Source: an uncultured Prevotellaceae bacterium (GTDB lineage Bacteria; Bacteroidota; Bacteroidia; Bacteroidales; Bacteroidaceae). From it: a stretch of DNA of 46,607 nucleotides. A program made the translations under genes and the position numbers. Position 1 is the stretch's first letter; each line of letters starts with the position of its first letter. Below are positions 2,732-46,607 of the stretch, piece by piece. Below the pieces are notes generated by a model that worked only from the letters and a program-made list of their open reading frames with translations, was not told where the DNA came from and ran no database searches. The DNA lies in the NCBI GenBank assembly GCA_947167515.1, contig CAMVIM010000028.1:1-46607 (forward strand), given 5' to 3'.

Positions 2732-3140
2732 GAGTTCGGTATAAGAATTACGCCTTCGGCGGATGTGTAAAATGACATTTAGTTACTTTACACATCCGCC
2801 GAAGGCGTATAATAAAACTTTTATGATTATCCGCAATCGTACCACCAATTGCTTATTTCAGACATGCGTTCATTTCAACACGAACCTTTACTCGGCGTAG
2901 CCAATGACACGAAATTTCACCAAGCCATGCGGAAAAGAGAACACAAAGCCGCAAGCGGCGACCAATTGCACGAACCATCCGGATGGATTGGCTACGCCGA
3001 ACTAAAGGTTCGTATGTTTCGTCGCACCGAAGGTGCTTTGTGTAATGTTTTCTGGTTGCATAGTTTGAGAATATTCGTGTTAAAATGAGCAGTTGGTGGT
3101 ATGTTTACGGATAGTCGTAAAACTTTTTTTATACCGAACT
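2732..3140. repeat. Large nested imperfect inverted repeat (about 410 bp, MITE-like)
   Basis: AGTTCGGTATA at 2732-2742 is mirrored at 3130-3140. Inside it lies a perfect 23-bp hairpin (2749-2771 with 2787-2809, 15-nt loop). Next comes an imperfect pair of about 40 bp (2814-2855 with about 3088-3128) and an inner pair around the words CGAACCTTTA and TAAAGGTTCG (about 2880-2905 with 2986-3012), plus a GCCGCAAGCGGC palindrome at 2948-2959. A 79-codon ORF at 2849-3088 falls inside and is explained by the repeat. No transposase is present, so a non-autonomous element is the simplest reading. Confidence 0.65.
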
Positions 3141-32917: not shown

Positions 32918-34450
32918 ATGAAAAAGATTAAATTTTTAAGCATGATGATGCTTGTGATGGTGGCCCTGCCATTGATGTTTTCTTGTAGCAAGGATGATGG
33001 AGACGATGGTGGCGACTCTGGAGGTAATGGAAACTCTGGAGGTGGCAGTAACATTACAGTTGTGGTTCATGATGACGGAACAATATCAGGAGGGCATACT
33101 TTCTCTGCAATAGATGATAAAAATTTCTATGTAGATTACATCAAGTATACGGTTGAAGAGGGTCATCTCATTGTCTCTGGCTATGACAAGGCAGGTTTAA
33201 AAGGTGCAGCCAATATTGTTGCTCGCCTTACATATAAAGGGAACACTTATGAGGTGTTGGGGATAAATGGATCTTCTTTCTCAGGCTGCAGTAGCTTGAC
33301 TTCCGTGACTATCCCTAACAGTGTCACATCCATTGGCGATAGGGCTTTCAGGGATTGTAGTAGCTTGACCTCCGTGAGCATTGGTAACGGTGTTACCTCC
33401 ATTGGTTCTAATACTTTCTCAGGCTGTAGCGGCTTGACTTCCGTGACGATACCCAACAGTGTCACATCCATTGGCGATTATGCTTTCTTTGGCTGTAGTG
33501 GTTTGACCTCCTTGACCATCCCTAACGGTGTTACCTCCATTGGCGATAGGGCTTTCTCTGGCTGTAGTAGCTTGACCTCCTTGACCATCCCTAACAGTGT
33601 TACCTCCATTGGCGATAGGGCTTTCTCTGGCTGTAGTAGCTTGACCTCCTTGACCATCCCTAACAGTGTTACCTCCATTGATTCTTCTGCTTTCTCTTAT
33701 TGTAGTGGTTTGACCTCCTTGACCATCCCCAACAGTGTCACATCCATTGGCAATAGGGCTTTCTCAGGTTGCAGCGGCCTGACTTCCGTGACGATACCCA
33801 ACAGTGTCACATCCATTGGCGATTATGCTTTCTCTGGCTGTAGTGGTTTGACCTCCTTGACCATTGGTAACAGCGTCACATCCATTGGCTATGATGCTTT
33901 CTGGGGCTGCAGTGGCTTAGCCTCCATTAAGGTTGAGAGCGGCAATACAAAATATGATTCTCGTGACAATTGTAATGCCATTATTGAGACAGCTAGCAAT
34001 ACATTAATACAAGGCTGCAAAAATACAACCATTCCCAACAGCGTCACATCCATTGGCGATAGGGCTTTCTCAGGTTGCAGCGGTCTGACTTCCGTGACGA
34101 TACCCAACAGTGTTACCTCCATTGGTGGTTATGCTTTCTATCAGTGCTACGGTCTGACTTCCGTGACGATACCCAACAGTGTTACCTCCATTGGTGGTTA
34201 TGCTTTCTATCAGTGCTACGGTCTGACTTCCGTGACGATTCCAAACAGTGTCACCTCAATTGGCTATTATGCCTTCTCAGGCTGCAGTGGCTTGACCTCA
34301 ATACATTGTTTGAGGACAACGCCTCCAGGAAGTGATTCCGATTCTTTTGATACTTACCAAACGGCTACATTGTATGTTCCCAGCGGTTCTTATAGTGCAT
34401 ATAAAAATAAATATCCTTGGAATAGATTTTATAATATAGTGGAAGAATAA
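32918..34450 (+). CDS. BspA-like leucine-rich repeat lipoprotein (LRR_5)
   Basis: A 510-residue lipoprotein, lipidation site C23 (LMFSCSKDD). After a Gly/Asp/Ser linker and a short domain (VDYIKYTVEEGHLIVSG) come about fourteen 23-residue repeats of the type LTSVTIPNSVTSIGDRAFSG with CS, the Treponema pallidum-type LRR of BspA. An island without repeats (KVESGNTKYDSRDNCNAIIE) splits them near residue 345. The C-terminal end (TPPGSDSDSF, ATLYVPSGSYSAYKNK) closes the solenoid. Such proteins bind host or neighbour surfaces. Several repeats are identical in DNA, so copy number is changing recently. Confidence 0.93.
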   Translation: MKKIKFLSMMMLVMVALPLMFSCSKDDGDDGGDSGGNGNSGGGSNITVVVHDDGTISGGHTFSAIDDKNFYVDYIKYTVEEGHLIVSGYDKAGLKGAANIVARLTYKGNTYEVLGINGSSFSGCSSLTSVTIPNSVTSIGDRAFRDCSSLTSVSIGNGVTSIGSNTFSGCSGLTSVTIPNSVTSIGDYAFFGCSGLTSLTIPNGVTSIGDRAFSGCSSLTSLTIPNSVTSIGDRAFSGCSSLTSLTIPNSVTSIDSSAFSYCSGLTSLTIPNSVTSIGNRAFSGCSGLTSVTIPNSVTSIGDYAFSGCSGLTSLTIGNSVTSIGYDAFWGCSGLASIKVESGNTKYDSRDNCNAIIETASNTLIQGCKNTTIPNSVTSIGDRAFSGCSGLTSVTIPNSVTSIGGYAFYQCYGLTSVTIPNSVTSIGGYAFYQCYGLTSVTIPNSVTSIGYYAFSGCSGLTSIHCLRTTPPGSDSDSFDTYQTATLYVPSGSYSAYKNKYPWNRFYNIVEE

Positions 34451-34464
34451 AACATGGACAAACA

Positions 34465-34499
34465 AAACCACCCGTGAGCACTATGCCTACGGGTGGTTT
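34465..34499. terminator. Terminator after the BspA-like gene
   Basis: AAACCACCCGT (34465-34475) pairs with ACGGGTGGTTT (34489-34499), then CATTTACTTTT. It can also end the convergent HTH remnant. Confidence 0.85.
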
Positions 34500-34531
34500 C
34501 ATTTACTTTTCAAAATCAAAAGACGCACACA

Positions 34532-34735
34532 TCACCACAAAGCGACGCGTCCCATCGTTCCAAGGTCGAGAGATGCGGTCTTGGCTCCCAATGCCTTGAA
34601 GGCTCTTACGATGGTGGCATAGGTGATGCTCTTGCCGCTCTCGATTTTTGAGATTTGTGCCTCCTGCACTCCCATGTGTTCGCCCAGTTGTTTCTGAGTG
34701 AGGTTCTGCTGCTGTCTGGTCTGCTTGATGGCTAT
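34532..34735 (-). pseudogene. HigA-type HTH antitoxin, N-terminus lost
   Basis: Reading on the minus strand, IKQTRQQQNLTQKQLGEHMG, then VQEAQISKIESGKSITYATI and ALGAKTASLDLGTMGRVALW are the XRE helix-turn-helix and tail of HigA-like antitoxins. Family members have another 30-35 residues before this point. Here the frame instead runs into DNA that on the other strand is the tail of a mobile-element gene, so the nominal N-terminus (from 34819) is not native. No HigB toxin is present. The 5' end was lost when the remnant at 34728-35183 arrived or when the region was deleted. Confidence 0.75.
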
Positions 34736-35183
34736 CGCGAGGAAGGTTGTGAGTGGCCTTGTAGAGAAAGGTAACAGTAAGTGGTAACATGAGTCAATGA
34801 CAAATGACAATAATGACAATTTTAAAAATGGGGTCTATACCTTTCCGTAATACTTTGTATCTTATTAATATATAAATAGTTATATATATAATAAGAGAAA
34901 AGCGCACCCCTCAAAAATAAACTGTCATAACTGTCATTTGTCATTGGGAACAACTAAATTCAAATTTGATTTTATCTAAAAAGCAGAAAACCAATGAAAT
35001 ACGATGTAACAAAAAACGAGGCTCCCGAAATGCCTAACCTCGGAAAGGGCACAGAATGCATCAAATTGCTGGTTTTTTAGGCCTCGAAAGGCATGTTTTA
35101 ACCCTGTTTTCGATGCTTTTCCCTGCTCTTGGTGCGTGTATGTGCGACGAGGAATTTCACTATCAGCCCTCATTTGGAGGGAA
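34728..35183 (+). pseudogene. Decayed remnant of a mobile-element replication module
   Basis: From about 34728 the plus strand encodes MAIARKVVSGLVEKGNSKW and stop, matching the last 18 codons of the gene at 44103-44492. It is followed by an intergenic region of the same layout as 44493-44688, and at 34995 by an ORF (MKYDVTKNEAPEMPNLGKGT, then ECIKLLVF) that matches the start of the gene at 44689 but stops after 28 codons. Out-of-frame similarity continues as FPALGACMCDEEFHY to about 35183. Stops and frameshifts show decay. Confidence 0.85.
34796..34947. repeat. Inverted triple-motif arms, remnant copy
   Basis: Left arm 34796-34821 has ATGACA three times (spacing 7 and 9); right arm 34922-34947 is its reverse complement with about 23 of 26 positions matching. 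Between them are GGGGT/ACCCC and an AT-rich palindrome (CTTATTA...TAATAAG, 34862-34896). It lies in the gap just before the remnant start codon, as does its counterpart at 44503-44650. Confidence 0.85.
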
Positions 35184-35447
35184 AATCGTGCCAATCCGCT
35201 CAATCTGCCGCTACGGCATAGTTCTTTATACAACTAATCCGCAAAGGAAATTACCCTTACGTCGTTAGCGTAATTACGGCTACGTCGAAGGGGTAATTAC
35301 GGGAACGGAAAAGCCGTAAGTATGCATACGAAATGGCTATTGGCATGCATATTCCGTACACATGGGTAGCAAATTTTTCATTTTTCACTTTTCGTTTTTC
35401 ACTTTTCACTTTTATTCCGTACCTTTGCACCCGTTAATTCATCGACA
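35184..35447. other. Intergenic region with an imperfect palindrome and the M28 promoter
   Basis: An imperfect palindrome centred on TAATTA covers about 35249-35300 (AAATTACCC at one end, GGGGTAATTA at the other). TACCTTTG at 35420-35427 is the -7 box of the downstream gene; its -33 region is only T-rich. Repeated TTTTTCACTTTTC words fill 35375-35412. Confidence 0.5.
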
Positions 35448-36455
35448 ATGAGAAAATTGCTCTATTTGGTTCTCTTTCCCTTGCTGCTGTTAGGCTGCAA
35501 GGAAAAGAAGCATGTGGACACCGACTATGTGTCGCCAGCACCTTCATTCAACGAGGATTCGGCCTTTCAGTATGTGGCTGAGCAATGTGCCTTTGGCCCT
35601 CGTGTGATGAACTCTGCGGCTCACGATTCGTGTGGCAACTACATCGCTCGCAAGTTTGAGGCGTTCGGAGCCACTGTCTATGACCAATATGCCAACTCGA
35701 AACTCTACGACGGCACACCTATCCTGATGCGTAATATCATTGCAGCCTTCAATCCTGATGCTCCGGCACGTATCATCATTTGTGGACACTGGGATAGTCG
35801 TCCGTGGGCTGACCACGACAACAACGAGGCAAATCACCGCACCCCGATTGATGGAGCCAACGATGGTGGCAGTTCCGTGGGCGTGATGCTCGAACTGGCG
35901 CGCCAGTTGCAGAAAGACATGGCCGAGAAAGGTGACTCGTCCCTTTTTGCCCTCCATCCTTCATTGGGCATCGACTTCATCTGTTGGGATGCAGAAGACT
36001 GCGGAACTCCAGCCTTTGACAACGATGGCGAAGACCATGAAAGCACGTGGTGCTTGGGCAGTCAGTATTGGTCGGGCAAGCGTCATATCGAAGGTTATAA
36101 GGCTCGCTACGGCATCAACCTCGACATGGTGGGCAATGCCAACACCATCTTCTACCGCGAACGCATCTCAATGGCATACGCTCCCACCATCGTCGATAAG
36201 GTGTGGGCAGCAGCCAACCGCATCGGTTATGGCAAATACTTCAGTTATGACGATGAAGGTGGTGGGGTGACAGACGACCACTTACAGGTCAATCGCGGTG
36301 GCATTCCTTGCATCGATGTGATAGGTACCGATACCCAAGAAGGCGGTTTTCCAGCCACTTGGCACACGATGGACGACGACATCAACCATATTGACAAAGA
36401 AACCCTCAAGGCTGTGGGACAGACCATGCTGGAGGTGATTTGGACAGAAGAATAA
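35448..36455 (+). CDS. M28-family lipoprotein, glutaminyl-cyclase-like
   Basis: A 335-residue lipoprotein, C17 in LLGCKE. The zinc-binding set of M28-fold enzymes is visible: D139 in DGANDGGSS, E183 in CWDAEDCG and a histidine in TWHTMDDD. SRPWADHD before it is typical of glutaminyl-peptide cyclotransferases of the animal type that periodontal Bacteroidales carry, where a single zinc ion is used. These enzymes cyclise N-terminal glutamine on exported proteins. A peptidase activity cannot be excluded from sequence alone. Confidence 0.87.
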   Translation: MRKLLYLVLFPLLLLGCKEKKHVDTDYVSPAPSFNEDSAFQYVAEQCAFGPRVMNSAAHDSCGNYIARKFEAFGATVYDQYANSKLYDGTPILMRNIIAAFNPDAPARIIICGHWDSRPWADHDNNEANHRTPIDGANDGGSSVGVMLELARQLQKDMAEKGDSSLFALHPSLGIDFICWDAEDCGTPAFDNDGEDHESTWCLGSQYWSGKRHIEGYKARYGINLDMVGNANTIFYRERISMAYAPTIVDKVWAAANRIGYGKYFSYDDEGGGVTDDHLQVNRGGIPCIDVIGTDTQEGGFPATWHTMDDDINHIDKETLKAVGQTMLEVIWTEE

Positions 36456-36530
36456 ATGCCCTCTCCACTACTCTCTCCCTGTGGGGCGAGAGAGGTCCGT
36501 GCGGGATGGGGAGGTATGATAAAAAACAAT
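36456..36530. repeat. Palindromic repeat between the M28 gene and sufE
   Basis: CTCTCTCCC (36471-36479) and GGGCGAGAGAG (36484-36494) form a hairpin with one bulge; CCTCTCC and GGGGAGG flank it. The words GTCCGTGCGGGATGG resemble TGCCGTCCGGATGG in the repeat inside the primase gene at 46231-46316, suggesting one family. Confidence 0.55.
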
Positions 36531-36538
36531 TGACGTTT

Positions 36539-36964
36539 ATGACAATAGAAGAAACACAACAAGAAGTGATTGAGGAGTTTGAGGGCTTCGACGACTGGAT
36601 GGACAAGTATCAGATGCTCATCGACTTGGGCAGTGAGCAGGAGCCGCTGCCTGCAGAGTATAAAGTAGAGAGCAACCTTATCGACGGTTGTCAGAGCCGT
36701 GTGTGGCTGCAAGCCGACCTCACACCCGAAGGGAAGATACACTTTCAGGCAGAGAGTGACGCGTTGATTGTGAAGGGCATCGTCACCCTCCTCATCCGTG
36801 TGTTGGACAACCATACACCCGATGAAATTCTTGCCGCAGACCTCCATTTCATCGAGGATATCGGCTTGAAGGAGCATCTTTCTCCCACACGTAGCAATGG
36901 CCTCTTGGCGATGATGAAGCAGATGAAGATGTACGCCATTGCCTTTAAAGCTAAAATGAACTAA
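36539..36964 (+). CDS. sufE: SufE-family sulfur acceptor protein
   Basis: A 141-residue protein from the ATG at 36539; the longer frame reads through the palindromic repeat and is rejected. The active cysteine is C51 in NLIDGCQSRVWL. SufE accepts sulfane sulfur from the SufS cysteine desulfurase for iron-sulfur cluster assembly. The C-terminal SPTRSNGLLAMMKQMKMYAI is standard. No other suf genes are seen. The ABC exporter ATG follows its stop without a gap. Confidence 0.95.
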   Translation: MTIEETQQEVIEEFEGFDDWMDKYQMLIDLGSEQEPLPAEYKVESNLIDGCQSRVWLQADLTPEGKIHFQAESDALIVKGIVTLLIRVLDNHTPDEILAADLHFIEDIGLKEHLSPTRSNGLLAMMKQMKMYAIAFKAKMN

Positions 36965-38803
36965 ATGAAGGAATTTTTCAATCAGATGGGCAGTTATTTT
37001 GCCCGCTACAAAGGGTACATTGCCGGAACGTTAGCCATGAACATTCTGGCCGCCTTGTTCAATGTCTTTTCCTTCTCCATCCTCTTGCCTATCTTGCAGA
37101 TACTCTTCAAGGTCAACTCGGAGACGTATCAGTTCATGGAATGGGGAACAGGGGGTGTGAACAACCTGCTGGAGGTGGCCAAGAACAACGGCTACTACTA
37201 CTCGCAGCAGTTGGTTGACACATACGGCCCTTCCACCACCCTGCTGATGCTGGGCGTGATTCTCGCCTCGCTCACCCTGCTCAAGGCTGCCACTTACTTC
37301 GGGGGGTCAGCCTGCCTGATGCCTTTACGTACAGGCATTATCCGCGACATCCGCAACGACATCTACAAGAAGATACTCTCCCTGCCCCTCTCCTTCTTCT
37401 CTGAGGAACGCAAGGGCGACATTCTGGCACGTGTCAGCACCGATGTGGGCGAGATTGACGGAAGCATCACCTCCTCGCTCGACATGATGATCAAGAATCC
37501 CATCTTCATCCTTGTCTATGTGGGCACCATGTTTGCCATGAGCTGGCAACTCACCCTTTTCACCCTGTTGGTGGTGCCACTTTTAGCCGGTGGAATCGGC
37601 CGTATTGGTAAGAAACTGAAGCAAAACTCGCTGCTGGCACAGTCGAAATGGAGCGATGGAATCAGCCAGATAGAAGAAACACTGGGTGGACTCCGCATCA
37701 TCAAGGCCTTCATTGCCGAGCGGAAGATGGAAGCCCGTTTTACCCAGATAAACAACGAACACCGCGATGCCGCCGTCAAGGTGGCCATCCGTCAGTCGGC
37801 AGCCCATCCTGTGAGTGAGTTCTTAGGCACCTGCATGATTGTCATCGTCCTTTGGTTTGGAGGTTACCTCATCTTTTCTGGCAACAGCCCTATCGATGCC
37901 AGCGGATTCATCTATTATCTGGTCATCCTCTACACCACCTTGCAGCCCATCAAAGACCTCTCCAAGGCGGGGTATAGCATCCAGAAGGGACTCGCCTCAC
38001 TGGAGCGCATCAACAAGATTCTCATGGCGGAAAACAACATCAAGGAGATAGAGCATCCTCGGAAAATCGATGCGCTCAACGACTGCATCCAGCTGGAGCA
38101 TGTCCACTTCTCCTACAACACAGGCCACGAGATTCTTCACGACATCAACCTCACCATTCCCAAAGGAAAGACCATCGCTCTGGTGGGTCAGTCGGGGTCG
38201 GGCAAGAGCACACTGGTTGACCTCATTCCGCGCTATCACGACGTGACAGCTGGAGCCATCAAGATAGATGGCGAGGACGTGCGCAATCTCTCCATCCACT
38301 CGTTGCGCGGCCTCATTGGCAACGTGAACCAAGAGGCTATTCTGTTCAACGACACCATCTTCAACAACATCGCCTTCGGGGTGGACAATGCCACACAGGA
38401 GCAGGTGGAGGCAGCGGCCCGCATAGCCAATGCCCACGATTTCATCATGGAGATGGAGAAGGGCTATCAGACCAATGTGGGTGACCGTGGCGGTCGTCTT
38501 TCGGGTGGACAGCGTCAACGCATCTCCATTGCCCGTGCCATCTTGAAGAATCCACCCATCCTCATCCTCGACGAAGCCACTTCTGCCCTCGACACGGAGA
38601 GCGAACGACTGGTGCAGGACGCATTGGAGAAACTGATGAAATCGCGCACCACCATTGCCATTGCGCACCGTCTCTCCACCATCAAGAATGCCAGCGAAAT
38701 CTATGTGCTCCACGAGGGCAAGATTGTGGAGCGAGGCACTCACGAGGAACTCATTGCCCAGAATGGCTACTACAAGAAGCTGAACGACATGCAAGCCTTG
38801 TGA
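36965..38803 (+). CDS. MsbA-like ABC exporter (fused membrane and ATPase domains)
   Basis: A 612-residue half-transporter. Six membrane helices lie in about residues 15-330. The ATPase domain (about 365-612) shows Walker A GQSGSGKST, Q-loop region GNVNQEAILF, signature LSGGQRQRISIARAIL, Walker B ILILDEATSALD and the H-loop AIAHRLSTI. It likely flips lipid A or another lipid, or exports a drug; substrate is not certain. It starts directly after the sufE stop. Confidence 0.92.
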   Translation: MKEFFNQMGSYFARYKGYIAGTLAMNILAALFNVFSFSILLPILQILFKVNSETYQFMEWGTGGVNNLLEVAKNNGYYYSQQLVDTYGPSTTLLMLGVILASLTLLKAATYFGGSACLMPLRTGIIRDIRNDIYKKILSLPLSFFSEERKGDILARVSTDVGEIDGSITSSLDMMIKNPIFILVYVGTMFAMSWQLTLFTLLVVPLLAGGIGRIGKKLKQNSLLAQSKWSDGISQIEETLGGLRIIKAFIAERKMEARFTQINNEHRDAAVKVAIRQSAAHPVSEFLGTCMIVIVLWFGGYLIFSGNSPIDASGFIYYLVILYTTLQPIKDLSKAGYSIQKGLASLERINKILMAENNIKEIEHPRKIDALNDCIQLEHVHFSYNTGHEILHDINLTIPKGKTIALVGQSGSGKSTLVDLIPRYHDVTAGAIKIDGEDVRNLSIHSLRGLIGNVNQEAILFNDTIFNNIAFGVDNATQEQVEAAARIANAHDFIMEMEKGYQTNVGDRGGRLSGGQRQRISIARAILKNPPILILDEATSALDTESERLVQDALEKLMKSRTTIAIAHRLSTIKNASEIYVLHEGKIVERGTHEELIAQNGYYKKLNDMQAL

Positions 38804-38830
38804 TGTTATTTAATCACTACCAAAACATTT

Positions 38831-39039
38831 AGCTTGAATATAAGTAACTCAACTTTCGCAAGCTCCACTTTTTTGAAGTTAAAGAAGTTAGAGAAGTTAA
38901 AGAAGTTAGAGACGAATGTCATGCTGCTGTATTCATTGTCAGAAGGTATCGTCTTTAACTTCTAAGCGAAGCGATAACTTCTTTAACTTCTATAACTTCT
39001 ACAACTTGCGAAAGTTGAGTAAGTAAGTGTAATCAAGCT
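38831..39039. repeat. 209-bp inverted repeat with GAAGTTARA tandem tract
   Basis: Ends AGCTTGA and TCAAGCT are mirrored, followed inward by ACTCAACTTTCGCAAG (38847-38862) and CTTGCGAAAGTTGAGT (39005-39020). Inside, 9-bp words GAAGTTAAA and GAAGTTAGA alternate on the left (38875-38911) and their complements on the right (38953-39003), around a short unique middle. No ORF is present. It behaves like a non-autonomous palindromic element and could fold into one long stem after the exporter gene. Confidence 0.8.
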
Positions 39040-39086
39040 ATACTATTTTGTATAAACAAGGCAATCATTTAAGTGTCATCAATACA

Positions 39087-39110
39087 ACTGCCTCACATGT
39101 TGCGAGGCAG
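39087..39110. terminator. Short hairpin, possible terminator remnant
   Basis: CTGCCTC pairs with GAGGCAG around ACATGTTGC. There is no T run, so terminator activity is doubtful. Confidence 0.3.
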
Positions 39111-39165
39111 AAGACTAAAATGATTGGGGTTGCGTCAAGGAGTAACCACGATTGTATGAAAAGGA

Positions 39166-39197
39166 TTTGTATGATAGATGGAAAATGTGTACCTTTG
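39166..39197 (+). promoter_or_regulatory. Promoter of the thioesterase-dprA operon
   Basis: TTTG (39166-39169), exactly 20 bp and TACCTTTG (39190-39197), about 25 nt before the ATG. Confidence 0.8.
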
Positions 39198-39221
39198 CAA
39201 AAAATAAAAATATAGAAGACT

Positions 39222-39626
39222 ATGGCCAATTACATTTTTGAGTTAAAGGATAAGGTACGTGATTATGAGTGCGACTTGCAGGGCATCGTGAACAACGCCA
39301 ACTATCAGCATTATCTGGAGCATTGCCGACATGAGTTTCTGTTGGCACACAACATCAGTTTTGCGGAACTGCACGAAAAGGGGACGGATGCTGTGGTGGC
39401 TCGTCTGACGATGCAGTTCAAGGTGCCTTTGAAGAGTCGTGACGAGTATGTGACAAAGCTCTGGATCAAGAAGGAAGGGGTGCGCTACATCTTCATGCAG
39501 GACATCTTCCGTCTGCCCGACATGAAACTGTGCATCCGTGCGCAGGTGGATTCGGTGTGCCTCGTCAATGGCGTACTGGCAGAGAGCCCTGAACTGAACG
39601 AGAAATTTGCACCCTTCATGCAGTAG
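39222..39626 (+). CDS. Acyl-CoA thioesterase, hot-dog fold (4HBT/YbgC type)
   Basis: A 134-residue protein. VRDYECDLQGIVNNANYQHY followed by LEHCRHEF is the 4HBT active-site region (the aspartate of CDLQGIVNN is the expected catalytic residue). MQFKVPLKSRDEYVTKLWI is the central strand. It hydrolyses an acyl-CoA thioester in the cytoplasm; chain length unknown. Its TAG shares a base with the GTG start of dprA. Confidence 0.9.
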   Translation: MANYIFELKDKVRDYECDLQGIVNNANYQHYLEHCRHEFLLAHNISFAELHEKGTDAVVARLTMQFKVPLKSRDEYVTKLWIKKEGVRYIFMQDIFRLPDMKLCIRAQVDSVCLVNGVLAESPELNEKFAPFMQ

Positions 39627-40756
39627 TGGATACACAGGAAATCATCTCGGCTATCGCGCTGACCAAACTGAAAGGTCTGAGTCTGCTGAATGCCCGAACC
39701 TTGCTGGATGCGGTAGGTTCGGCTCATGAGGTAATTGCCCACCGAAAGGATATCGTGGACATCATCCCCGATGCCAGCCAACGGCTTGTGACGGCCTTTG
39801 CCGAAGCTGATGCCGCTCTGAAAGAAGCGGAGAGTGAGATGCAGTTTATCGAGCAGAAGAACCTGAAAGTCTTCACGCTGACGGACGAGGACTACCCGCA
39901 ACGGCTCCTCGAGTGTGAGGATGCCCCATTGGTGCTTTATTATTGTGGCAATGCCAATCTGAACGCAATGCGCATCATCAGCATCGTGGGTACACGAAAA
40001 TGTTCGGAATATGGACGTGAGGTGTGCAACAACTTTATTGCTGACTTGAAACGCTATTATCCCGATGCGCTGATTGTGAGTGGATTAGCCTATGGTATCG
40101 ACATCTGCGCCCATCGGGCAGCACTGGAGAATAGCATGTCAACGGTAGGTGTGTTGGCACATGGATTGGACAACATCTACCCCTCCATGCACCGCCAGAC
40201 GGCAGCAGACATGGTGCATCGGCAGGGAGGGTTGCTGACAGAATACACTACCCACACGACACCTGAGAGGGGGAACTTTGTGCGCCGCAACCGCATTGTG
40301 GCAGGGCTTTGCGATGCATGTATTGTGGTGGAGAGTGCCGAGCGTGGCGGCTCCCTGATTACTGCCGAGTTGGCAATGGAATATAACCGCGATGTCTTTG
40401 CTTTTCCAGGACGTGTGTATGATGAAGCCAGCCGAGGATGCAACAATCTCATTCGTCGCCAACAGGCAACGCTGCTGACTTGTGCGGCAGACCTCCTTGA
40501 TGCAATGGGTTGGGAGAATCCCCTGAAGAAAACATCAAAGCCAGAGGCTGTGCAGCAAGAACTTTTCCCCGACCTCACCGACGAAGAACGTGCTTTGGTG
40601 AACACACTCAAAGATGTCGATGACAAGCACATCAATCAGATTGCCATCGACGCCAATATTCCTTATTCGCGCGCCAGCATGATTCTTTTCGATTTGGAGA
40701 TGAAGGGAGTGGTCAGAGCACTCGGAGGAGCAAGATACAAGATTATGCACCATTGA
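39626..40756 (+). CDS. dprA: DNA-processing protein DprA
   Basis: A 376-residue protein starting at GTG (39626-39628), overlapping the thioesterase stop. It contains an N-terminal helix-hairpin region, the Rossmann-like core (ISIVGTRKCSEYGREVCNNF, VSGLAYGIDICAHRAALEN, VGVLAHGLDNIYP, NFVRRNRIVAGLCDACIVVE, GSLITAELAMEYNRDVFAFP) and the C-terminal winged-helix domain (INQIAIDANIPYSRASMIL). DprA loads RecA on incoming single strands during natural transformation. The length is usual for the family. Confidence 0.96.
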   Translation: MDTQEIISAIALTKLKGLSLLNARTLLDAVGSAHEVIAHRKDIVDIIPDASQRLVTAFAEADAALKEAESEMQFIEQKNLKVFTLTDEDYPQRLLECEDAPLVLYYCGNANLNAMRIISIVGTRKCSEYGREVCNNFIADLKRYYPDALIVSGLAYGIDICAHRAALENSMSTVGVLAHGLDNIYPSMHRQTAADMVHRQGGLLTEYTTHTTPERGNFVRRNRIVAGLCDACIVVESAERGGSLITAELAMEYNRDVFAFPGRVYDEASRGCNNLIRRQQATLLTCAADLLDAMGWENPLKKTSKPEAVQQELFPDLTDEERALVNTLKDVDDKHINQIAIDANIPYSRASMILFDLEMKGVVRALGGARYKIMHH

Positions 40757-40764
40757 CCAAGGGG

Positions 40765-40845
40765 ATGCACAAAAAATGGGGAAAAATTTCATGGCATAAC
40801 CCCGACAAGCATATTGTGATGAAAATCGACTGGGAAGATGACTAA
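40765..40845 (+). CDS. 26-residue ORF after dprA (tentative)
   Basis: It starts 8 bp after the dprA stop, with AAGGGG just before the ATG. It reads MHKKWGKISWHNPDKHIVMK and IDWEDD: basic front, acidic end, three tryptophans. It may be a small co-transcribed protein or chance. A terminator follows at 40904-40932. Confidence 0.3.
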   Translation: MHKKWGKISWHNPDKHIVMKIDWEDD

Positions 40846-40903
40846 TCAATAGTGAGTCCGCCGGTTTGTGGTGAAGTGACATCAGTTTGAAAAAGAGAGA
40901 AGA

Positions 40904-40932
40904 AGCATGTCCGCAAGGGCATGCTTTTTTCG
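40904..40932 (+). terminator. Terminator after dprA
   Basis: AGCATGTCC-GCAA-GGGCATGCT with a run of six T after it. Confidence 0.85.
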
Positions 40933-40961
40933 TGCCTTTTCCTGTTTTTTTCGGGAAAACA

Positions 40962-40991
40962 TTTGTTTGTGAAAAATAAGTTGTATATTTG
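40962..40991 (+). promoter_or_regulatory. Promoter of the orphan nucleotidyltransferase gene
   Basis: TTTG (40962-40965), 18-bp spacer and TATATTTG (40984-40991); slightly short spacing. The start codon at 41019 is about 27 nt on. Confidence 0.55.
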
Positions 40992-41018
40992 CAGTCAGGA
41001 ATCCTAACATCACGAACT

Positions 41019-41336
41019 ATGAACAAGATACTTGAGCATGCACATCCACACATTTCGGCTTTGTGTCGCAAGCACAGAGTCAGGAGCCTGTATGCTTTTG
41101 GTTCAGTACTGACCTCACGCTTTTCTGATAAGAGTGATGTGGATTTCCTGGTGGATTTCAAGACCGAAGAGATTCCCGACTACCTCACCAACTACTTCGA
41201 CCTGAAGTATGCCTTGGAAGACACCGTGGGGCGTGAAGTGGACCTTGTGGAGGAGAAAGCCATCCGCAACCCTGTCTTCAAACGAAACATAGAAAAGACA
41301 AAACAGAAGATATATTCAACCATCTCCCCTTGTTAA
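41019..41336 (+). CDS. Orphan MntA-like minimal nucleotidyltransferase
   Basis: A 105-residue protein from the ATG at 41019. It has the GS-X10-DXD signature (G28, S29, D40, D42 in AFGSVLTSRFSDKSDVDFLV). Its relative at 32151 is paired with a HEPN toxin, but no HEPN gene follows here: the next 300 bases are gene-free and hold the second copy of the 70-bp repeat. Either the toxin was lost or this enzyme acts alone. Start downstream of the -7 box excludes the longer frame. Confidence 0.88.
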   Translation: MNKILEHAHPHISALCRKHRVRSLYAFGSVLTSRFSDKSDVDFLVDFKTEEIPDYLTNYFDLKYALEDTVGREVDLVEEKAIRNPVFKRNIEKTKQKIYSTISPC

Positions 41337-41372
41337 GGCAAGAAGTTGCTTCGATTTTGGGAGAATAACTTA

Positions 41373-41442
41373 TTAACCCTCATGCCTATGAGATAAGGAA
41401 AGAATAAATTGATAAAAGGACATATAGGATGAACATCCACTT
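41373..41442. repeat. 70-bp dispersed repeat, copy 2
   Basis: Near-identical to 32832-32901. It begins 36 bp after the stop of the orphan nucleotidyltransferase gene, much as copy 1 begins 24 bp after the HEPN gene, and ends abruptly at CCACTT. Confidence 0.9.
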
Positions 41443-41650
41443 TTGGATTCTTGTTTTCCGAATATCGCCAATTGAAAGAAAAATGTACAAGAACTGAAGT
41501 AGATAGTTCACGCCAGAAGGCGTGGGCATTTGCTCGTTTAAGATTGTAAGGCGTTTGGCGACGCTTGGGAGACGTAGACGAAGTAAATTGTCCACGTTTT
41601 CTTTTTGTGCTTTATAAATAACTATTTAATAATTCCAAACAATCAATCAA
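41443..41650. other. Intergenic region upstream of a lipoprotein gene
   Basis: No gene is visible. A small hairpin CACGCC-AGAA-GGCGTG lies at 41509-41524. The last 50 bases are AT-rich and lead into the ATG at 41651. Confidence 0.4.
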
Positions 41651-42934
41651 ATGAAAAAGATTAATTTTTATGCCGTAACACTCCTCACGAGTGTTATGAT
41701 GCTGGGATTCTCAGCATGTAGTTCGGATGATGTGCCCGGAAACGAACAACTGACCCAAAAGGATGAAGCAAAGGTCTATTTTGTCTATACGTTAGACACG
41801 TCAGCTGGTACTTCGATGAACCAGACTCGCGCCAAAGCTGCGAAGACCAACGCCGAGGTGTTCGATGAGTTCTACACGAAAATCAGGAGTGGTGAATTGG
41901 TCGCACCATCTTATGAACTGTCTTTGACGGAAGTCAATACTGGTGCATCTTATTCGTTCAAAGGCAACTGGAAAAGTCATGACCTGATTACACTGAACAC
42001 AGGTACTTATCATATTGTCGGAAAAACGACAGCCGAGGGTGAAAACATCCAGGAAAAGTGCTCGTTCATCTTTGATGAAGTGTGTGATATAGATATTACT
42101 AGTAGTGTGGTGACTCTTCATGCTGTTTACGACAGTTTTCTGCTGATATTCAACAACTCGGATGTTCAGTCGTTACAGAACAATAATGGCACAAGTTTGG
42201 CATCGTTCTTTACGTTCGGCACTTCTTACAAGTATGCCTTCGTAAAGGATCAACTCTATTTGTCAGACAAGAAAAATGATGCTTATATTCTCGGAAAATA
42301 TACCGACGAAGCAGAATTCAAAGTCTTTACAGGCAATCTTAACTTTGAAAAAGGTAAGTACTATGTGTACAATAGTGTATCCAACAGTTTTGATGTGCCA
42401 CCGATGGAAGAAGGCAATGTTCCTAATCACACTTATGTTGATTTGGGATTGCCTTCAGGAAAGAAATGGGCCACAACTAATATCGGAGCCGATACTGAAT
42501 ACGAATATGGTTTATTTTTCGCTTGGGGTGAAATTAATACAAAAACAGACTATAATCCATCTTTATATACTGGAGGATCTTTAGATACGGCTAAGGAACT
42601 ATGGGGTAATTATTGGACTGTTCCATCTGCCTCGGACTTTGAAGAATTGATGAATCAATGTACATGGACAACAACGACAAGAAATGGGATAAAGGGTTCC
42701 GAAGTACAAGGTCCCAATGGAAATACCATTTTCTTGCCTTGGAGTGGTTGGATTAATTCTACGTCAATCATTAGTAGAGGCTCTGAAGGTATATATTGGT
42801 CAAGTACATTAGATGGTGATGGCGCACGTGAATTACGAGTTGGCGAAGCTTTTTGGGATCAAACTCCAGGGATACCGTGGATTGGTACAGACGGACTTAG
42901 TGGAGGTAGAAACATTCGACCTGTTCTTAAATAA
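41651..42934 (+). CDS. Surface lipoprotein with C-terminal paralogous domain
   Basis: A 427-residue lipoprotein, C23 in FSACSSDD. Residues 30-255 are a beta-rich region without a family I can name (YELSLTEVNTGASYSFKGNW, TYHIVGKTTAEGENI). From about 260 the text YVDLGLPSGKKWATTNIGAD, then YGLFFAWGE, NYWTVPSASDFEEL and GIYWSSTLDGDG is the repeated domain common in Bacteroidales and Fibrobacter surface proteins. The DNA of this C-terminal part is visibly richer in A and T than the genes around it, suggesting domain acquisition. A strong palindromic terminator follows. Confidence 0.78.
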   Translation: MKKINFYAVTLLTSVMMLGFSACSSDDVPGNEQLTQKDEAKVYFVYTLDTSAGTSMNQTRAKAAKTNAEVFDEFYTKIRSGELVAPSYELSLTEVNTGASYSFKGNWKSHDLITLNTGTYHIVGKTTAEGENIQEKCSFIFDEVCDIDITSSVVTLHAVYDSFLLIFNNSDVQSLQNNNGTSLASFFTFGTSYKYAFVKDQLYLSDKKNDAYILGKYTDEAEFKVFTGNLNFEKGKYYVYNSVSNSFDVPPMEEGNVPNHTYVDLGLPSGKKWATTNIGADTEYEYGLFFAWGEINTKTDYNPSLYTGGSLDTAKELWGNYWTVPSASDFEELMNQCTWTTTTRNGIKGSEVQGPNGNTIFLPWSGWINSTSIISRGSEGIYWSSTLDGDGARELRVGEAFWDQTPGIPWIGTDGLSGGRNIRPVLK

Positions 42935-42961
42935 CGTGAGTTCGTCGAACTCACGTTATTT
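42929..42961. terminator. Palindromic terminator, 16-bp arms
   Basis: AAATAACGTGAGTTCG (42929-42944) pairs with CGAACTCACGTTATTT (42946-42961). The arms reach over the TAA of the lipoprotein gene. Confidence 0.75.
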
Positions 42962-43035
42962 AGTAAATCCATGCTTTTTTATGGCGGATTACACACGTTC
43001 TCTATTTTTTTCCCTCTGTTTTTTTCTCTCCTTTT

Positions 43036-43067
43036 TTTGAGCATGTGCGGGATTTTCCGTATCTTTG
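43036..43067 (+). promoter_or_regulatory. Promoter of the mobile-element module
   Basis: TTTG (43036-43039), exactly 20 bp and TATCTTTG (43060-43067), about 40 nt before the ATG at 43108. Confidence 0.75.
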
Positions 43068-43107
43068 CAGCCCTTTTTTGTAATAATAACAATCATACTA
43101 CGAGTCT

Positions 43108-43887
43108 ATGAAAGAAAATGTGAATACGGAGGAACTGAGGGAGGCGGCGCGTGAGGTGCGCCGCCAGTTGGAACGTGAGCAAGAGGAGCTGCAGGAGAGG
43201 CATGAGCAGCTGAAGGGATTCATGCTGGCGTTGGAATCGACGGAGGAGGTGCTGCTGGAGAATGAGCGGCTGCGCGAGGAGATGGTGCAGCTGCGGTCGC
43301 AATGGCAGGAGGAGAAGGAAAGGAACACGAGGCTGGAGATGCAGCTGAACGAGATGAGCAAGCTGTCGGCCAGCGTGGCGGGCAAGGCGTCGCAGGACGA
43401 GCTGCTGAAGGCGTTGCGCGTGTTTGTCAACAAGTCGAAGCGCAAGAAGATGGAGAAGCGCATCGCCGTGAAGGAGATGGTGCTGGAGCTGGCCAACGCC
43501 AACGGACTGGTGCTGCCTTCGGACTTGGCGGCGAGCATCGACAGCCTGGACGACGAGCAGCCGCAGGTGGAACAGCCGCAGGCGGCAACGGGCGGTGTGA
43601 CCGAAAACGTGGCGGAGCTGCTGACCGCAGAGGCGCAGGTGCTGTGGCAGCGCTTGCGCGATGCGAGGTTCATCGTGGCCGACGGCTATGCTTTGGCGGA
43701 GGGTGTATCGTCCAACCAGGCTGCGTACATAGCCGACCGCATGGCCGAGCGGTTGCAGATTAGGAAGAAGTGGAAGCTGTTTCAGCAGCTGTGGGGCATT
43801 CCAAATCTGGCTCAGTTGGCCGGCTCTTGGCAGCAGACGGGTAAGCTGCCACCCAGAAGCAACGATATTGACAGGATTGTGAAATAG
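43108..43887 (+). CDS. Coiled-coil protein of a mobile-element module, unknown function
   Basis: A 259-residue soluble protein. Residues 5-100 form a long charged coiled coil (LREAAREVRRQLEREQEELQ and onward, with heptad leucines). A basic patch KSKRKKMEKR (about 110-119) follows, a glutamine/proline-rich linker (QPQVEQPQA) and a C-terminal region rich in alanine with AYIADRMAERLQIRKKWKLF. The gene is much richer in G and C than the lipoprotein before it. First gene of a group that continues with a small protein, a DUF3987-like protein and a primase. I cannot assign a function; a DNA-organising or replication accessory role is a guess. Confidence 0.75.
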   Translation: MKENVNTEELREAAREVRRQLEREQEELQERHEQLKGFMLALESTEEVLLENERLREEMVQLRSQWQEEKERNTRLEMQLNEMSKLSASVAGKASQDELLKALRVFVNKSKRKKMEKRIAVKEMVLELANANGLVLPSDLAASIDSLDDEQPQVEQPQAATGGVTENVAELLTAEAQVLWQRLRDARFIVADGYALAEGVSSNQAAYIADRMAERLQIRKKWKLFQQLWGIPNLAQLAGSWQQTGKLPPRSNDIDRIVK

Positions 43888-43907
43888 TGTAAGAATCAAT
43901 CGGTTAG

Positions 43908-43953
43908 GGTCTTATATAAGTCTTATGGTAAGTCTTATATAAGACCTTTTTTT
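43908..43953 (+). terminator. Terminator with three GTCTTAT words
   Basis: GGTCTTATATAAG (43908-43920) pairs with CTTATATAAGACC (43934-43946), followed by TTTTTTTG. The heptamer GTCTTAT occurs at 43909, 43920 and 43932. A TACCTTTG box at 43967-43974 lies 20 bp downstream and probably starts the next transcript, whose leader has a CCAGC-TCACAT-GCTGG hairpin near 43985-44000. Confidence 0.8.
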
Positions 43954-44102
43954 GTGCCCTTATCCGTACCTTTGCATCGTCAACCAGCTCACATGCTGGG
44001 CGACATGAATAATTAACCTCTGAGTTGGAGCGGATGGAGTCTTCACGTGAATAAAGATGGCCATCGGATTTCTGAAACTTCTTCTCGCTAAAACTCAAAA
44101 TT

Positions 44103-44492
44103 ATGATCAAGATTCAATTCAATGAGACTGACGCAGGTCAGATGACGCTGGATGGCATGATGACATTCGGCACGGTGGACGGGAATCTGCACACGGCAGA
44201 TTTTGTGCCAACCGAGTATGTGGAAATGGAGCCCTGGATGGCTCTGTGCAAAGTGCAGCGCATGAGGGACGGGAACGTCTATGTGACGGAGCTGCCCAAG
44301 CGGGTGAGAAACAAGCCTATCTACCGAGAGGACAACGCGACGTTCTCGCAGGGGCAGGACAGGCGGTGGTACTTCTACTTCTCGCTGGACGAGGAGGAGC
44401 TGCCGCGACTGCCGGAGGAACTGGTGAGACAGGCTGTGGCGATTGCAAGGAAAGTTGTAAATGGCCTTGTAGAGAAAGGTAATTGTAAGTAG
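44103..44492 (+). CDS. Small mobile-element protein, 129 residues, unknown function
   Basis: It reads MIKIQFNETDAGQMTLDGMM at the start, has a beta-rich middle (RDGNVYVTELPKRVRNKPIY, RRWYFYFSLDEEELPRLP) and a helical end (VRQAVAIARKVVNGLVEKGN). No signal peptide or catalytic motif. The last 18 codons are conserved in the decayed remnant at 34728, so this gene is a stable part of the module. It is the second gene, after the coiled-coil gene and before the DUF3987-like gene. Confidence 0.75.
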   Translation: MIKIQFNETDAGQMTLDGMMTFGTVDGNLHTADFVPTEYVEMEPWMALCKVQRMRDGNVYVTELPKRVRNKPIYREDNATFSQGQDRRWYFYFSLDEEELPRLPEELVRQAVAIARKVVNGLVEKGNCK

Positions 44493-44502
44493 TGAGCGAG
44501 TT

Positions 44503-44650
44503 GGTTACAGTTACAGTGGTTACAGTTAAAAAAAGAGGGTATGGTTTCCCTTATAATACTTTATAACTTATTAATATATATATAGTTATATATATAATAT
44601 AAGGGATGACACCCCTCAAAAAAACAACTGTAACAACTGTAACTGTAACC
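44503..44650. repeat. Inverted triple-motif arms, intact copy
   Basis: Left arm 44503-44527 carries GTTACA three times (spacing 6 and 9). Right arm 44626-44650 carries TGTAAC three times in mirror order; 24 of 25 positions pair. Between them lie a GAGGG/CCCCTC pair and an AT-rich palindrome (CCCTTATA...TATAAGGG, 44548-44604). The whole fills the gap before the ATG at 44689. The same layout with different arm sequence occurs at 34796-34947. Confidence 0.9.
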
Positions 44651-44688
44651 GAAGACTGAGAATTTTTCATCTAAAAAGCTAAGAATCA

Positions 44689-46002
44689 ATGAAATACAAT
44701 GTAAGCAAATCAAAGGCTCCCGAGATGCCTAACCTCGGAAAGGGCACAGAATGCATCAAATTGCTGCTCTCACAGGCCTCGAAAGACATGCATGAACCCC
44801 TCGTTCCGATGTTTTTCCCTGTACTTGGCGCACACATCAGCGGCGCAGAATTTCAGTATCCCGACCTCACTTGGAAGGAAATGTGTGGTCAAATGGCCCA
44901 TCTCGTGGCCGATTCGGGCAACAACAAGGGTCAATTGTCACATTTGGTGGAAGCCATCTGCCGCGATTTCCGTCAGCACGACGAGGAGGAACTGAAGAAA
45001 CTGGTGGAATGGGCGAAACTGACCAAGACCCGTGGAGCCAACAAGGAGAAGCCTGCCCGTCCGGACACGGCCATCCTCTTCCCACCCACCGACACCACGC
45101 GTGCGGGATTCCTGCTCAACGCTATGGGCTGTGAGACGTTGGGCGGCAGGACGCAGTACTTCAACCTGCCTGAGGTGGAGATGGCCGACGGACTCTGCGG
45201 CGGTCACAAGCAGGTGTCGCACATGCTCCGAAACATCTACGACAGAGCCAGAGCTGGCGCCATGAGAGCCACAGCCGACGGTGTGACGGGCAATCCCGTC
45301 CTGCGTGCCTGCATGACCATCTCGTCGACCCCTGTGGCAGCCCGTGGCTTCTACAAGAGCGAGCTCTTCAACGGCACGTTCGGCCGCATGGTCTTCTCCT
45401 ACAAGGCACGAGGCAGCCGTAGCGGACGCATTCCCCGACAGGGGCAGTATGGCGACGAGTTCTACAGGAAGCTGGACGAATATCTGGCGCGGCTCGACCT
45501 ATGCAAGGGGCGCTACATCATCCGTCCGCTCAACAAACTGACGGACAGGCTGGCGGAAGATATGGCCTCCATTGCCGACTTGACCGACGACGATGTGCTG
45601 TGGGACATGTCAAAGCGTGCGCTGGTCTCGGCTTGGAAGGCTGGCTGCATCCTCTGGGCGCTCAATGGCCAGACGTGGACAAAGGCGATGGGCGAGATGG
45701 TGGAATGGCTCCTCTATCGGGACATCTGGAGCAAGCTGCGCATCTTCTCAGACCTGCTGAAGGGTGGCGACACCTGCACACAGGAGGCTGCCAAGTCGGG
45801 GCCGAGAAACATGCTCGACTCGCTGCCCAACACCTTCAACGAGGCGCAGCTGGAGGCACTTCGCTTGGAGTCGGGCAAGAGCAAGGAAGGCACGAAGAAC
45901 CAGCTGAAGCAATGGGTGTTCCGCAAGTTCATCACCTACTCGAACCAGACGGGACTCTACACCAAAACCGACGAATATCTGAAAGGCAATGGACAAGTTT
46001 GA
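44689..46002 (+). CDS. DUF3987-like replication protein of a mobile element
   Basis: A 437-residue protein. MFFPVLGAHISGAEFQY (about 41-57), ADSGNNKGQLSHLVEAICRD (a degenerate P-loop position, with K80), IFPPTDTTRAGFLLNAMG and STPVAARGFYKSELFNGTFG with RMVFSYKARG follow the order of DUF3987-like proteins that precede a CHC2 primase in Bacteroidales elements. These are thought to work as helicase-like ATPases in element replication. The Walker A here lacks a standard GKS/T, so ATP use is uncertain. Its last 14 nt overlap the primase gene. A broken relative starts at 34995. Confidence 0.72.
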   Translation: MKYNVSKSKAPEMPNLGKGTECIKLLLSQASKDMHEPLVPMFFPVLGAHISGAEFQYPDLTWKEMCGQMAHLVADSGNNKGQLSHLVEAICRDFRQHDEEELKKLVEWAKLTKTRGANKEKPARPDTAILFPPTDTTRAGFLLNAMGCETLGGRTQYFNLPEVEMADGLCGGHKQVSHMLRNIYDRARAGAMRATADGVTGNPVLRACMTISSTPVAARGFYKSELFNGTFGRMVFSYKARGSRSGRIPRQGQYGDEFYRKLDEYLARLDLCKGRYIIRPLNKLTDRLAEDMASIADLTDDDVLWDMSKRALVSAWKAGCILWALNGQTWTKAMGEMVEWLLYRDIWSKLRIFSDLLKGGDTCTQEAAKSGPRNMLDSLPNTFNEAQLEALRLESGKSKEGTKNQLKQWVFRKFITYSNQTGLYTKTDEYLKGNGQV

Positions 46003-46607
46003 ACTTCAAAGGCTCCGCGACCTCCCGATTGAGGGGGTCGCAGAGCGACTTGGACTCCAGGTCTCGCGACATAAGTGCTTGTGTCCGTTCCATGCGGACA
46101 ACCATCCGAGCCTCTCGTTTTGTGTGAGGAAGAACATGTACAGATGCTTCGTGTGCGGGGCAAGCGGCGGGACGATTGATCTCGTGATGAACTATCTGAA
46201 CAAGGATTTCAAGGAGGCGTGCAGGTGGTTAAGTCCCCTCCCGACCTCCCCAAAAGGGGAGGGGTGCCGTCCGGATGGTTCTTCCCCCCTTGGGGGGATA
46301 AGAGAGGGGCTTGGGGCTGGATTCGACGCCAGTCGTTATGAGCGGTTTTTCGAGCGCCCTTGGCTGAACGAGGCTGCCAAGCAGTTCCTTTTTGCCGAAA
46401 GGCGGTTGGATGAGCGTGTGGTGCGCTGGTGCCGACTGACCTCGTGGCAGGACAGGCGGGGAGTGCCTTGGTTGCAGATACCTTATTATGATAGGGAAGG
46501 GCGTCTGGTTGGCATCCAGAACCGCAACCTCGTGAAAGGTGCATCGCCACGATTCCGATTCCCCAGCGGTTCCCGATGCGGCATCTACAATCTGCCCGTG
46601 CTGAACC
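45989..46607 (+). CDS. CHC2 zinc-finger primase, N-terminal part (cut by window edge)
   Basis: 206 residues are visible. The CHC2 zinc finger is complete: C32, H35, C53 and C56 in CLCPFHADNHPSLSF and MYRCFVCGASGG. After residue 81 the repeat at 46231-46316 adds about 29 residues in frame (SPLPTSPKGEGC and onward), after which primase-like text resumes (SRYERFFERPWLNEAAKQFL, VPWLQIPYYDREGRLVGIQN). The TOPRIM domain should follow beyond the edge. It primes replication of a plasmid-like or integrative element. The ATG overlaps the preceding gene by 14 nt. Confidence 0.88.
   Translation, partial: MDKFELQRLRDLPIEGVAERLGLQVSRHKCLCPFHADNHPSLSFCVRKNMYRCFVCGASGGTIDLVMNYLNKDFKEACRWLSPLPTSPKGEGCRPDGSSPLGGIREGLGAGFDASRYERFFERPWLNEAAKQFLFAERRLDERVVRWCRLTSWQDRRGVPWLQIPYYDREGRLVGIQNRNLVKGASPRFRFPSGSRCGIYNLPVLN
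46231..46316. repeat. Palindromic repeat inserted in frame inside the primase gene
   Basis: CCTCCCC-AAAA-GGGGAGG (46245-46262) and CCCCCC-TT-GGGGGG (46284-46297) sit within outer arms AAGTCCCCTC and GAGGGGCTT. The block is about 86-87 bp and adds no stop codon in the primase frame. It resembles the repeat at 36456-36530. Confidence 0.7.

Follow-up and report, generated by a model that had tools for sequence, protein, structure and literature searches.

Mirrored triple-word arms upstream of a helicase-like gene in Bacteroidales: probable iterons of an element-specific replication origin

Introduction

The contig CAMVIM010000028.1 (assembly GCA_947167515.1) of an uncultured Prevotellaceae bacterium, analyzed here over its whole stretch of 46,607 nt ("the window"), contains two copies of a module in which a pair of mirrored DNA arms precedes the gene for a 437-amino-acid (aa) protein or the remnant of such a gene. 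Each arm is built of three copies of a six-letter word, and the word differs between the two copies of the module. What keeps both arms of one copy in step, and what reads the word? The arms are probably the iterons of a replication origin that is read by a self-loading, MCM-like helicase initiator, the 437-aa protein. The iteron reading is strongly supported by covariation between the letters of the word and three residues of the protein, from which binding is predicted, and origin function is likely by analogy with described systems.

Results

Mirrored arms in the window and at homologous loci

The features on which the argument is built are the following:

44503..44527, + strand: left arm of the intact copy, with GTTACA at 44504, 44510 and 44519 (sequence reading, inverted-repeat search)
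44528..44625, no strand: AT-rich centre separating the intact arms (sequence reading, AT content)
44626..44650, - strand: right arm of the intact copy, GTTACA words on the opposite strand (sequence reading, inverted-repeat search)
34795..34822, + strand: left arm of the remnant copy, three times ATGACA (sequence reading, inverted-repeat search)
34919..34946, - strand: right arm of the remnant copy (sequence reading, inverted-repeat search)
44689..46002, + strand: 437-aa protein, predicted MCM-like AAA+ helicase/initiator (open reading frame (ORF), structure model, Foldseek)
45841..45969, + strand: predicted C-terminal winged helix, residues 385-427 of the 437-aa protein (structure model)
45898..45912, + strand: codons of the recognition-helix residues 404 (N), 407 (K) and 408 (Q), which covary with y, x and z of the word (covariation)

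The intact arms are 25 nt long with a complementarity of 96%, and the right arm ends 38 bp before the 437-aa gene; the remnant arms are 28 nt long with a complementarity of 89%. The inverted-repeat scores were 22 and 19, respectively; 300 dinucleotide shuffles per region averaged 7.7 and never exceeded 13. An earlier note on this DNA, made from the letters alone, had described mirrored arms at both loci and word spacings of 7 and 9 nt (remnant) and 6 and 9 nt (intact) in the left arms, and both descriptions were confirmed. Further inverted repeats with scores of at least 14 exist in the window, three within 1782-3000 and one at 38876-39007, and the special feature is therefore the mirrored triple word and not the inverted repeat alone. 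The repeats at 38876-39007 (AAGTTA-type) and 1782-2060 (CGAAT-type) are strong, of a different make and devoid of CA words.

Two additional full copies of the gene were found in the same genome, both with mirrored triple arms, and their words are GTATCA (locus L005) and GTTTCA (L006). A scan of genome contigs yielded 61 loci, all from Bacteroidales or Bacteroidetes by title, and the arms occur in rumen and gut bacteria. Matches at E ≤ 1e-10 were present in 35 of 45 genomes of the genus (including the own genome and relatives of about 30% identity), and matches at E ≤ 1e-60 in 35 of 301 genomes of the family. The upstream regions were compared for the 110 loci up to L138 that had enough upstream sequence (102 distinct sequences). 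An inverted repeat scored at least 12 in 104 of them and at least 14, i.e. above the shuffle maximum, in 94. Among the six loci below 12, words were seen by eye in both arms of L113 and L117 and in one arm of L120, and no words were found in L130, L136 and L138, which are short remnants.

The word has the form x-T-y-z-CA(G/A)T, and 20 four-letter versions occur in the 75 non-redundant loci with a full protein. A clear trio in each arm was present in 60 of these 75 loci, and in 38 of the 60 all six four-letter words were identical. The proposal that a change in one arm is mirrored in the other thus holds well beyond the two window copies, and mirrored triple arms with differing words, which the earlier note had suggested looking for in homologues, characterize nearly all loci examined.

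Three residues of one predicted helix covary with the word

Mutual information between the word letters and the protein columns led to the C-terminal end of the 437-aa protein itself. Across the 75 loci, x is linked to residue 407: G occurs with Arg (35/41), A with Ser, Asn or Ala (23/25) and C with Tyr (5/7). The letter z is linked to residue 408, with A opposite Gln in 17 of 24 loci, C opposite Lys in 15 of 16, and T opposite Val, Leu or Met in 32 of 35. Histidine at residue 404 goes with C at y (10 of 10 loci) and is found in 2 of the 53 loci that have T there. Arginine with G, glutamine with A, lysine opposite C and aliphatic side chains against the thymine methyl group are textbook contacts.

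Common ancestry was controlled for with a tree built from residues 1-385 only, which gave 37 non-overlapping, phylogenetically independent pairs for the ranking of 434 columns. Residue 407 ranked first for x (p 3.8e-5), residue 404 for y (p 4.9e-3) and residue 408 for z (p 9.1e-5), all values uncorrected. That the three best columns lie inside five residues of one helix is a stronger point than the p values. Judging from their spacing, the three residues would lie on one face of the helix.

The same pair test with the upstream 127-aa family and with the primase gave best columns of only 0.024 and 0.0075 (47 loci each, 23 pairs, lower power). Neither was retained as a reader of the word, as no comparable covariation signal was seen, though with fewer pairs. 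A protein whose predicted DNA-binding region varies with the word, of the kind that the earlier note had proposed to seek, was thus found directly beside the arms.

Prediction of new loci

The rules were fixed before the words of new loci were viewed. The hold-out set consisted of 22 loci; L163, which is identical to the training locus L051, and L168, a near-duplicate of L166, were left out. The letter z was predicted correctly in 20 of 21 loci (one had no rule; the share of T is taken up below). For x, where two loci fell outside the rules, 15 of 20 predictions were right. For y, His404 predicted C correctly in 10 of 10 cases, and one further locus with y=C (L162) lacks the histidine.

Fold and identity of the 437-aa protein

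An AlphaFold2 model of the 437-aa protein was built from 38 sequences and had a mean predicted local distance difference test score (pLDDT) of 78.6. Its C-terminus consists of two helices (385-394 and 399-411) and two strands (415-418 and 423-426), with block pLDDT values of 84-93 across residues 381-430. This domain is predicted to be a winged helix, with residues 404, 407 and 408 on the predicted recognition helix. In a Foldseek search, the best matches were MCM subunits (8s09 chain 5, E 5e-4), and Cch, the helicase of SCCmec, came at rank 11 (E 0.07); the template modelling (TM) scores were low, and the resemblance is thus suggestive only.

No Pfam match was obtained for the protein at E ≤ 1, and its family carries neither a Pfam nor an NCBIfam name. 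It shares about 30% identity with longer proteins (738-829 aa, 13 loci), and one of three longer proteins tested matches BT4734-like_N and DUF3987 (DUF3987 E 0.022), both below the curated cut-off. The earlier label of a DUF3987-like gene hence does not apply to the 437-aa protein itself, but it finds an echo in a distant relative.

Arm spacing and the AT-rich centre

The distance between the innermost words, determined for 60 loci, falls into clusters of 106-109 (35 loci), 117-121 (13 loci) and 127-131 (9 loci), with one locus each at 74, 115 and 136. The steps are close to one helical turn of about 10.6 bp. The phase test used a weak jitter randomisation, so that the distance clusters themselves are the evidence, and, as the loci also share ancestry, helical phasing is counted as supporting evidence. 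The centre between the arms has an AT content of 74% (60 loci) versus 50% in the upstream flank (59 loci). Iteron arrays also flank an AT-rich segment in staphylococcal pathogenicity islands (SaPIs).

Module genes and neighbours

The other features of the module in the window are:

45989..46607, + strand: CHC2-zinc-finger, DnaG-like primase, truncated by the contig end (ORF; Pfam on the L006 homologue)
44103..44492, + strand: 129-aa gene upstream of the arms, of a family that precedes 44 of 62 loci (ORF, neighbour clustering)
43108..43887, + strand: coiled-coil-looking gene (by eye), with relatives in 9 loci (ORF, neighbour comparison)
34994..35131, + strand: remnant of the initiator gene, first ~46 residues, with stops (sequence comparison)

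The primase family lies downstream of the 437-aa gene in 54 of 62 loci, and the primase of L006 matches the Pfam CHC2 zinc ribbon (E 3.5e-15). Further downstream, 11 of 62 loci encode a small protein of the DUF4248 kind and 19 of 62 one of the HU type; Pfam searches of single neighbours gave E 1.9e-29 for DUF4248 (L048) and 9e-19 for HU-HIG (L044). The label DUF5675 for a 165-aa neighbour found no support in Pfam and was dropped. An ORF on the minus strand at 34532-34819, with a helix-turn-helix of the Cro/C1 type, overlaps with the remnant copy's left arm; the part that it has in common with the intact copy is the other-strand tail of the upstream 129-aa gene.

Distribution and mobility of the module

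The module site of Prevotella communis, where a Peptidase M15 gene (L044:4876-5361) lies directly upstream of the module, was examined in the best 20 of 52 genomes that contain the flanking gene; P. communis itself ranks first among these. The flank covered up to 1.5 kb and was shorter in L199 and L201. All 19 relatives of the genus retain the flanking gene pair, and none of the 19 has the module in the flank; the presence of the module at this site is sporadic. In 5 of 62 loci, a Y1-transposase-like gene (Pfam E 0.059, below the cut-off) is located roughly 4 kb upstream.

Arms of distant relatives and solo arms

A locus of the same genome (L147, C8:70500-83500) contains direct repeats of 478 bp at 1016-1489 and 11235-11709, which are 94.8% identical and about 10.2 kb apart. 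Mirrored triple arms with GTTGCA as their word stand alone in each of them, and no helicase gene of the 437-aa family was found near them. Fragments of a pyruvate:ferredoxin oxidoreductase-like gene (by eye) are repeated around these arms, as if by repeated insertion of elements.

A search with the GTTGCA arms gave matches some kilobases away from genes of the BT4734/DUF3987 type. Directly upstream of 13 BT4734-type genes no arms were found. Mirrored triple arms were present upstream in 10 of 20 regions of this type (L219, L221, L222, L223, L226, L228, L229, L230, L231 and L233), and the remaining 10 had none within the stretch examined. L225, L228, L229 and L233 had been chosen because the arm search pointed there, and L225 then turned out to have no arms; of the regions picked independently, 7 of 16 have arms. 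The arms lie 0.9-9.2 kb before the gene in nine regions and 7.7 kb before the gene end in L231, and we infer that they belong to the BT4734/DUF3987-type gene in spite of this distance. The equivalent of residue 407, assigned by eye and uncorrected for ancestry, is Arg in 7 of 7 regions with x=G and Ser in 2 of 2 with x=A; it is also Arg in L221, which has the word TATACA.

Methyltransferase genes lie between the arms and the primase-helicase gene in L228 and L229, the two loci scanned. The cargo comprises two C5 methylases and an HNH protein in one of them, and D12 and N6/N4 methylases in the other.

Discussion

A candidate origin with a proposed self-loading initiator

The structural matches, the downstream primase and the described iteron binding of Cch2 led us to read the locus as an element-specific origin with a self-loading initiator, one of the alternatives that the earlier note had offered, and the residue-letter covariation together with the mirrored arms across homologues speaks for it. 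Comparative support covers the arms, the words, the covariation, the predicted winged helix and the helical phasing; binding itself, helicase action, replication and a specificity that separates co-resident elements are what we infer from these. Each arm, to the left and to the right of the AT-rich segment, would offer three binding sites, six in all, to the predicted winged helix of the 437-aa protein. This protein would be a self-loading, MCM-like replicative helicase that assembles on the two arms and melts the AT-rich centre, and helicase and DnaG-like primase together would start the replication of a small element. As elements differ in their word and residues 404, 407 and 408 change with it, each initiator would be expected to work mostly at origins of its own kind.

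Several observations weigh against this reading. Foldseek support is weak, with one of 359 matches at E ≤ 0.001 and a TM-score of about 0.35. Parts of the ATPase core were modelled with low confidence, the P-loop is unusual by eye, and a profile search against the sequences of PDB chains (E ≤ 10) returned no solved helicase and one unrelated match. No integrase was prominent among the neighbour families present in at least 5 loci, with the ORF clusters only partly scanned for families, and searches of phages, plasmids and viral contigs yielded no match to the 437-aa protein, the viral scan reaching close relatives only. The covariation p values are uncorrected for 434 columns, and y alone would fail correction. 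The z rule is broken by L007, L008, L010, L041, L077 and L117, and z was T in 15 of the 22 hold-out loci, so that a constant guess of T would already have been right in 15. Of 20 hold-out loci, the x rule mispredicted five: L176 and four members of the TCTCA clade, in which x is mixed within the arm. In L162, the arms (GTCTCA) do not match the recognition helix, which is of the GTTCCA type; this locus is possibly a recent recombinant, and recombination between the arms and the gene end is a possible reason for mismatched loci in general. Lastly, co-resident copies differed in their word in 30 of 31 pairs from 18 hand-listed multi-copy genomes, the sole identical pair being L106/L123, and 1.5-2.9 identical pairs are expected by chance. 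The difference is not significant, and word avoidance is not claimed, because chance predicts nearly the same result.

Alternative readings

The arms could instead be an operator at which the winged helix represses or activates its own gene, origin function being absent. The covariation would then be identical, and most loci have about 32-60 nt between the right arm and the start codon, which is a promoter or leader position. However, an AT-rich segment flanked by two arrays of three, next to genes for a helicase-like protein and a primase, has the anatomy of a replicon, and arms 0.9-9.2 kb before BT4734-type genes do not suit an operator of these genes, provided that they do belong to them. 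We regard a pure operator as unlikely; autoregulation may exist besides origin function.

A site of recombination or transposition bound by the helicase-like protein, i.e. an element end or a resolution site, was another suggestion of the earlier note. The solo arms inside the two direct repeats of one genome, the sporadic presence at one site and the subthreshold Y1-transposase-like gene would be in line with it, but this positive evidence is small. Among the neighbour families found in at least 5 loci, no recombinase or transposase is widespread, and the arms sit between two conserved module genes, which makes this explanation highly improbable.

If the two arms paired into a long RNA stem, as the earlier note also suggested, compensatory changes and the position in a probable leader would be accounted for, but this reading can practically be discarded, as the words inside each arm change together, the letters track protein residues, the arm spacing is stepped by the helical turn, and Rfam gave no match at gathering score in 34400-45200.

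Relation to known systems

The view of the earlier note that no described element has such a feature was too strong. Passages of PMC7581432 describe SaPI and staphylococcal cassette chromosome mec (SCCmec) origins with iterons that are read by the C-terminal domain of a helicase, and binding of the Cch2 C-terminal domain to its own iterons. Common to SaPI Rep/ori, SCCmec Cch2 and the present module would be a helicase initiator with a C-terminal domain that reads iterons adjoining its gene, here as indicated by covariation. A primase function encoded nearby is also shared. The origin of those systems lies downstream of the helicase gene, whereas it would lie upstream here. Further differences are the two mirrored arms with about three words apiece, the DnaG-like primase, the Bacteroidales host and a readable residue-to-base pattern over some 20 words. 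Sequence homology to Rep, Cch and Cch2 was sought and not found, and the locus is therefore likened to these systems and not assigned to them.

PMC5862659 treats DUF3987 as a predicted helicase family and suggests that related primases bind origins through their winged helices. Proteins of the BT4734-like_N plus DUF3987 type (PF08800, PF13148), a family label that derives from the one match in three, share with the 437-aa protein the identity of about 30% and, in half of the regions, the same kind of mirrored triple arms. They differ in being single proteins of 738-829 aa, with arms mostly several kilobases away and cargo in between.

Residue-base pairs between an initiator and its iterons have reportedly been inferred by comparison before, for the iteron-related domain of geminivirus Rep by Arguello-Astorga and Ruiz-Medrano in 2001. 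That protein is a rolling-circle Rep of plant viruses with an unrelated fold. The open-licence literature, judged by titles and the starts of abstracts and with subscription journals mostly outside, contained nothing on these arms or on such modules as origins.

Meaning for Bacteroidales elements

Taken together, the analysis offers a testable function, origin recognition, for the 437-aa protein family and, by extension, for BT4734/DUF3987-type proteins, and it points out the probable origins of both types of elements. It is conceivable, at somewhat less than an even chance, that Bacteroidales chromosomes harbour a large undescribed class of small replicative elements, comprising both types, whose MCM-like initiators diversify by a simple DNA recognition code of three residues. 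Such elements would represent natural, mutually orthogonal origin-initiator pairs, which may let several elements, some of them with restriction-modification-type cargo, share one cell. The loci are a natural record, residue by letter, of the joint change in specificity that an initiator and its origin would undergo.

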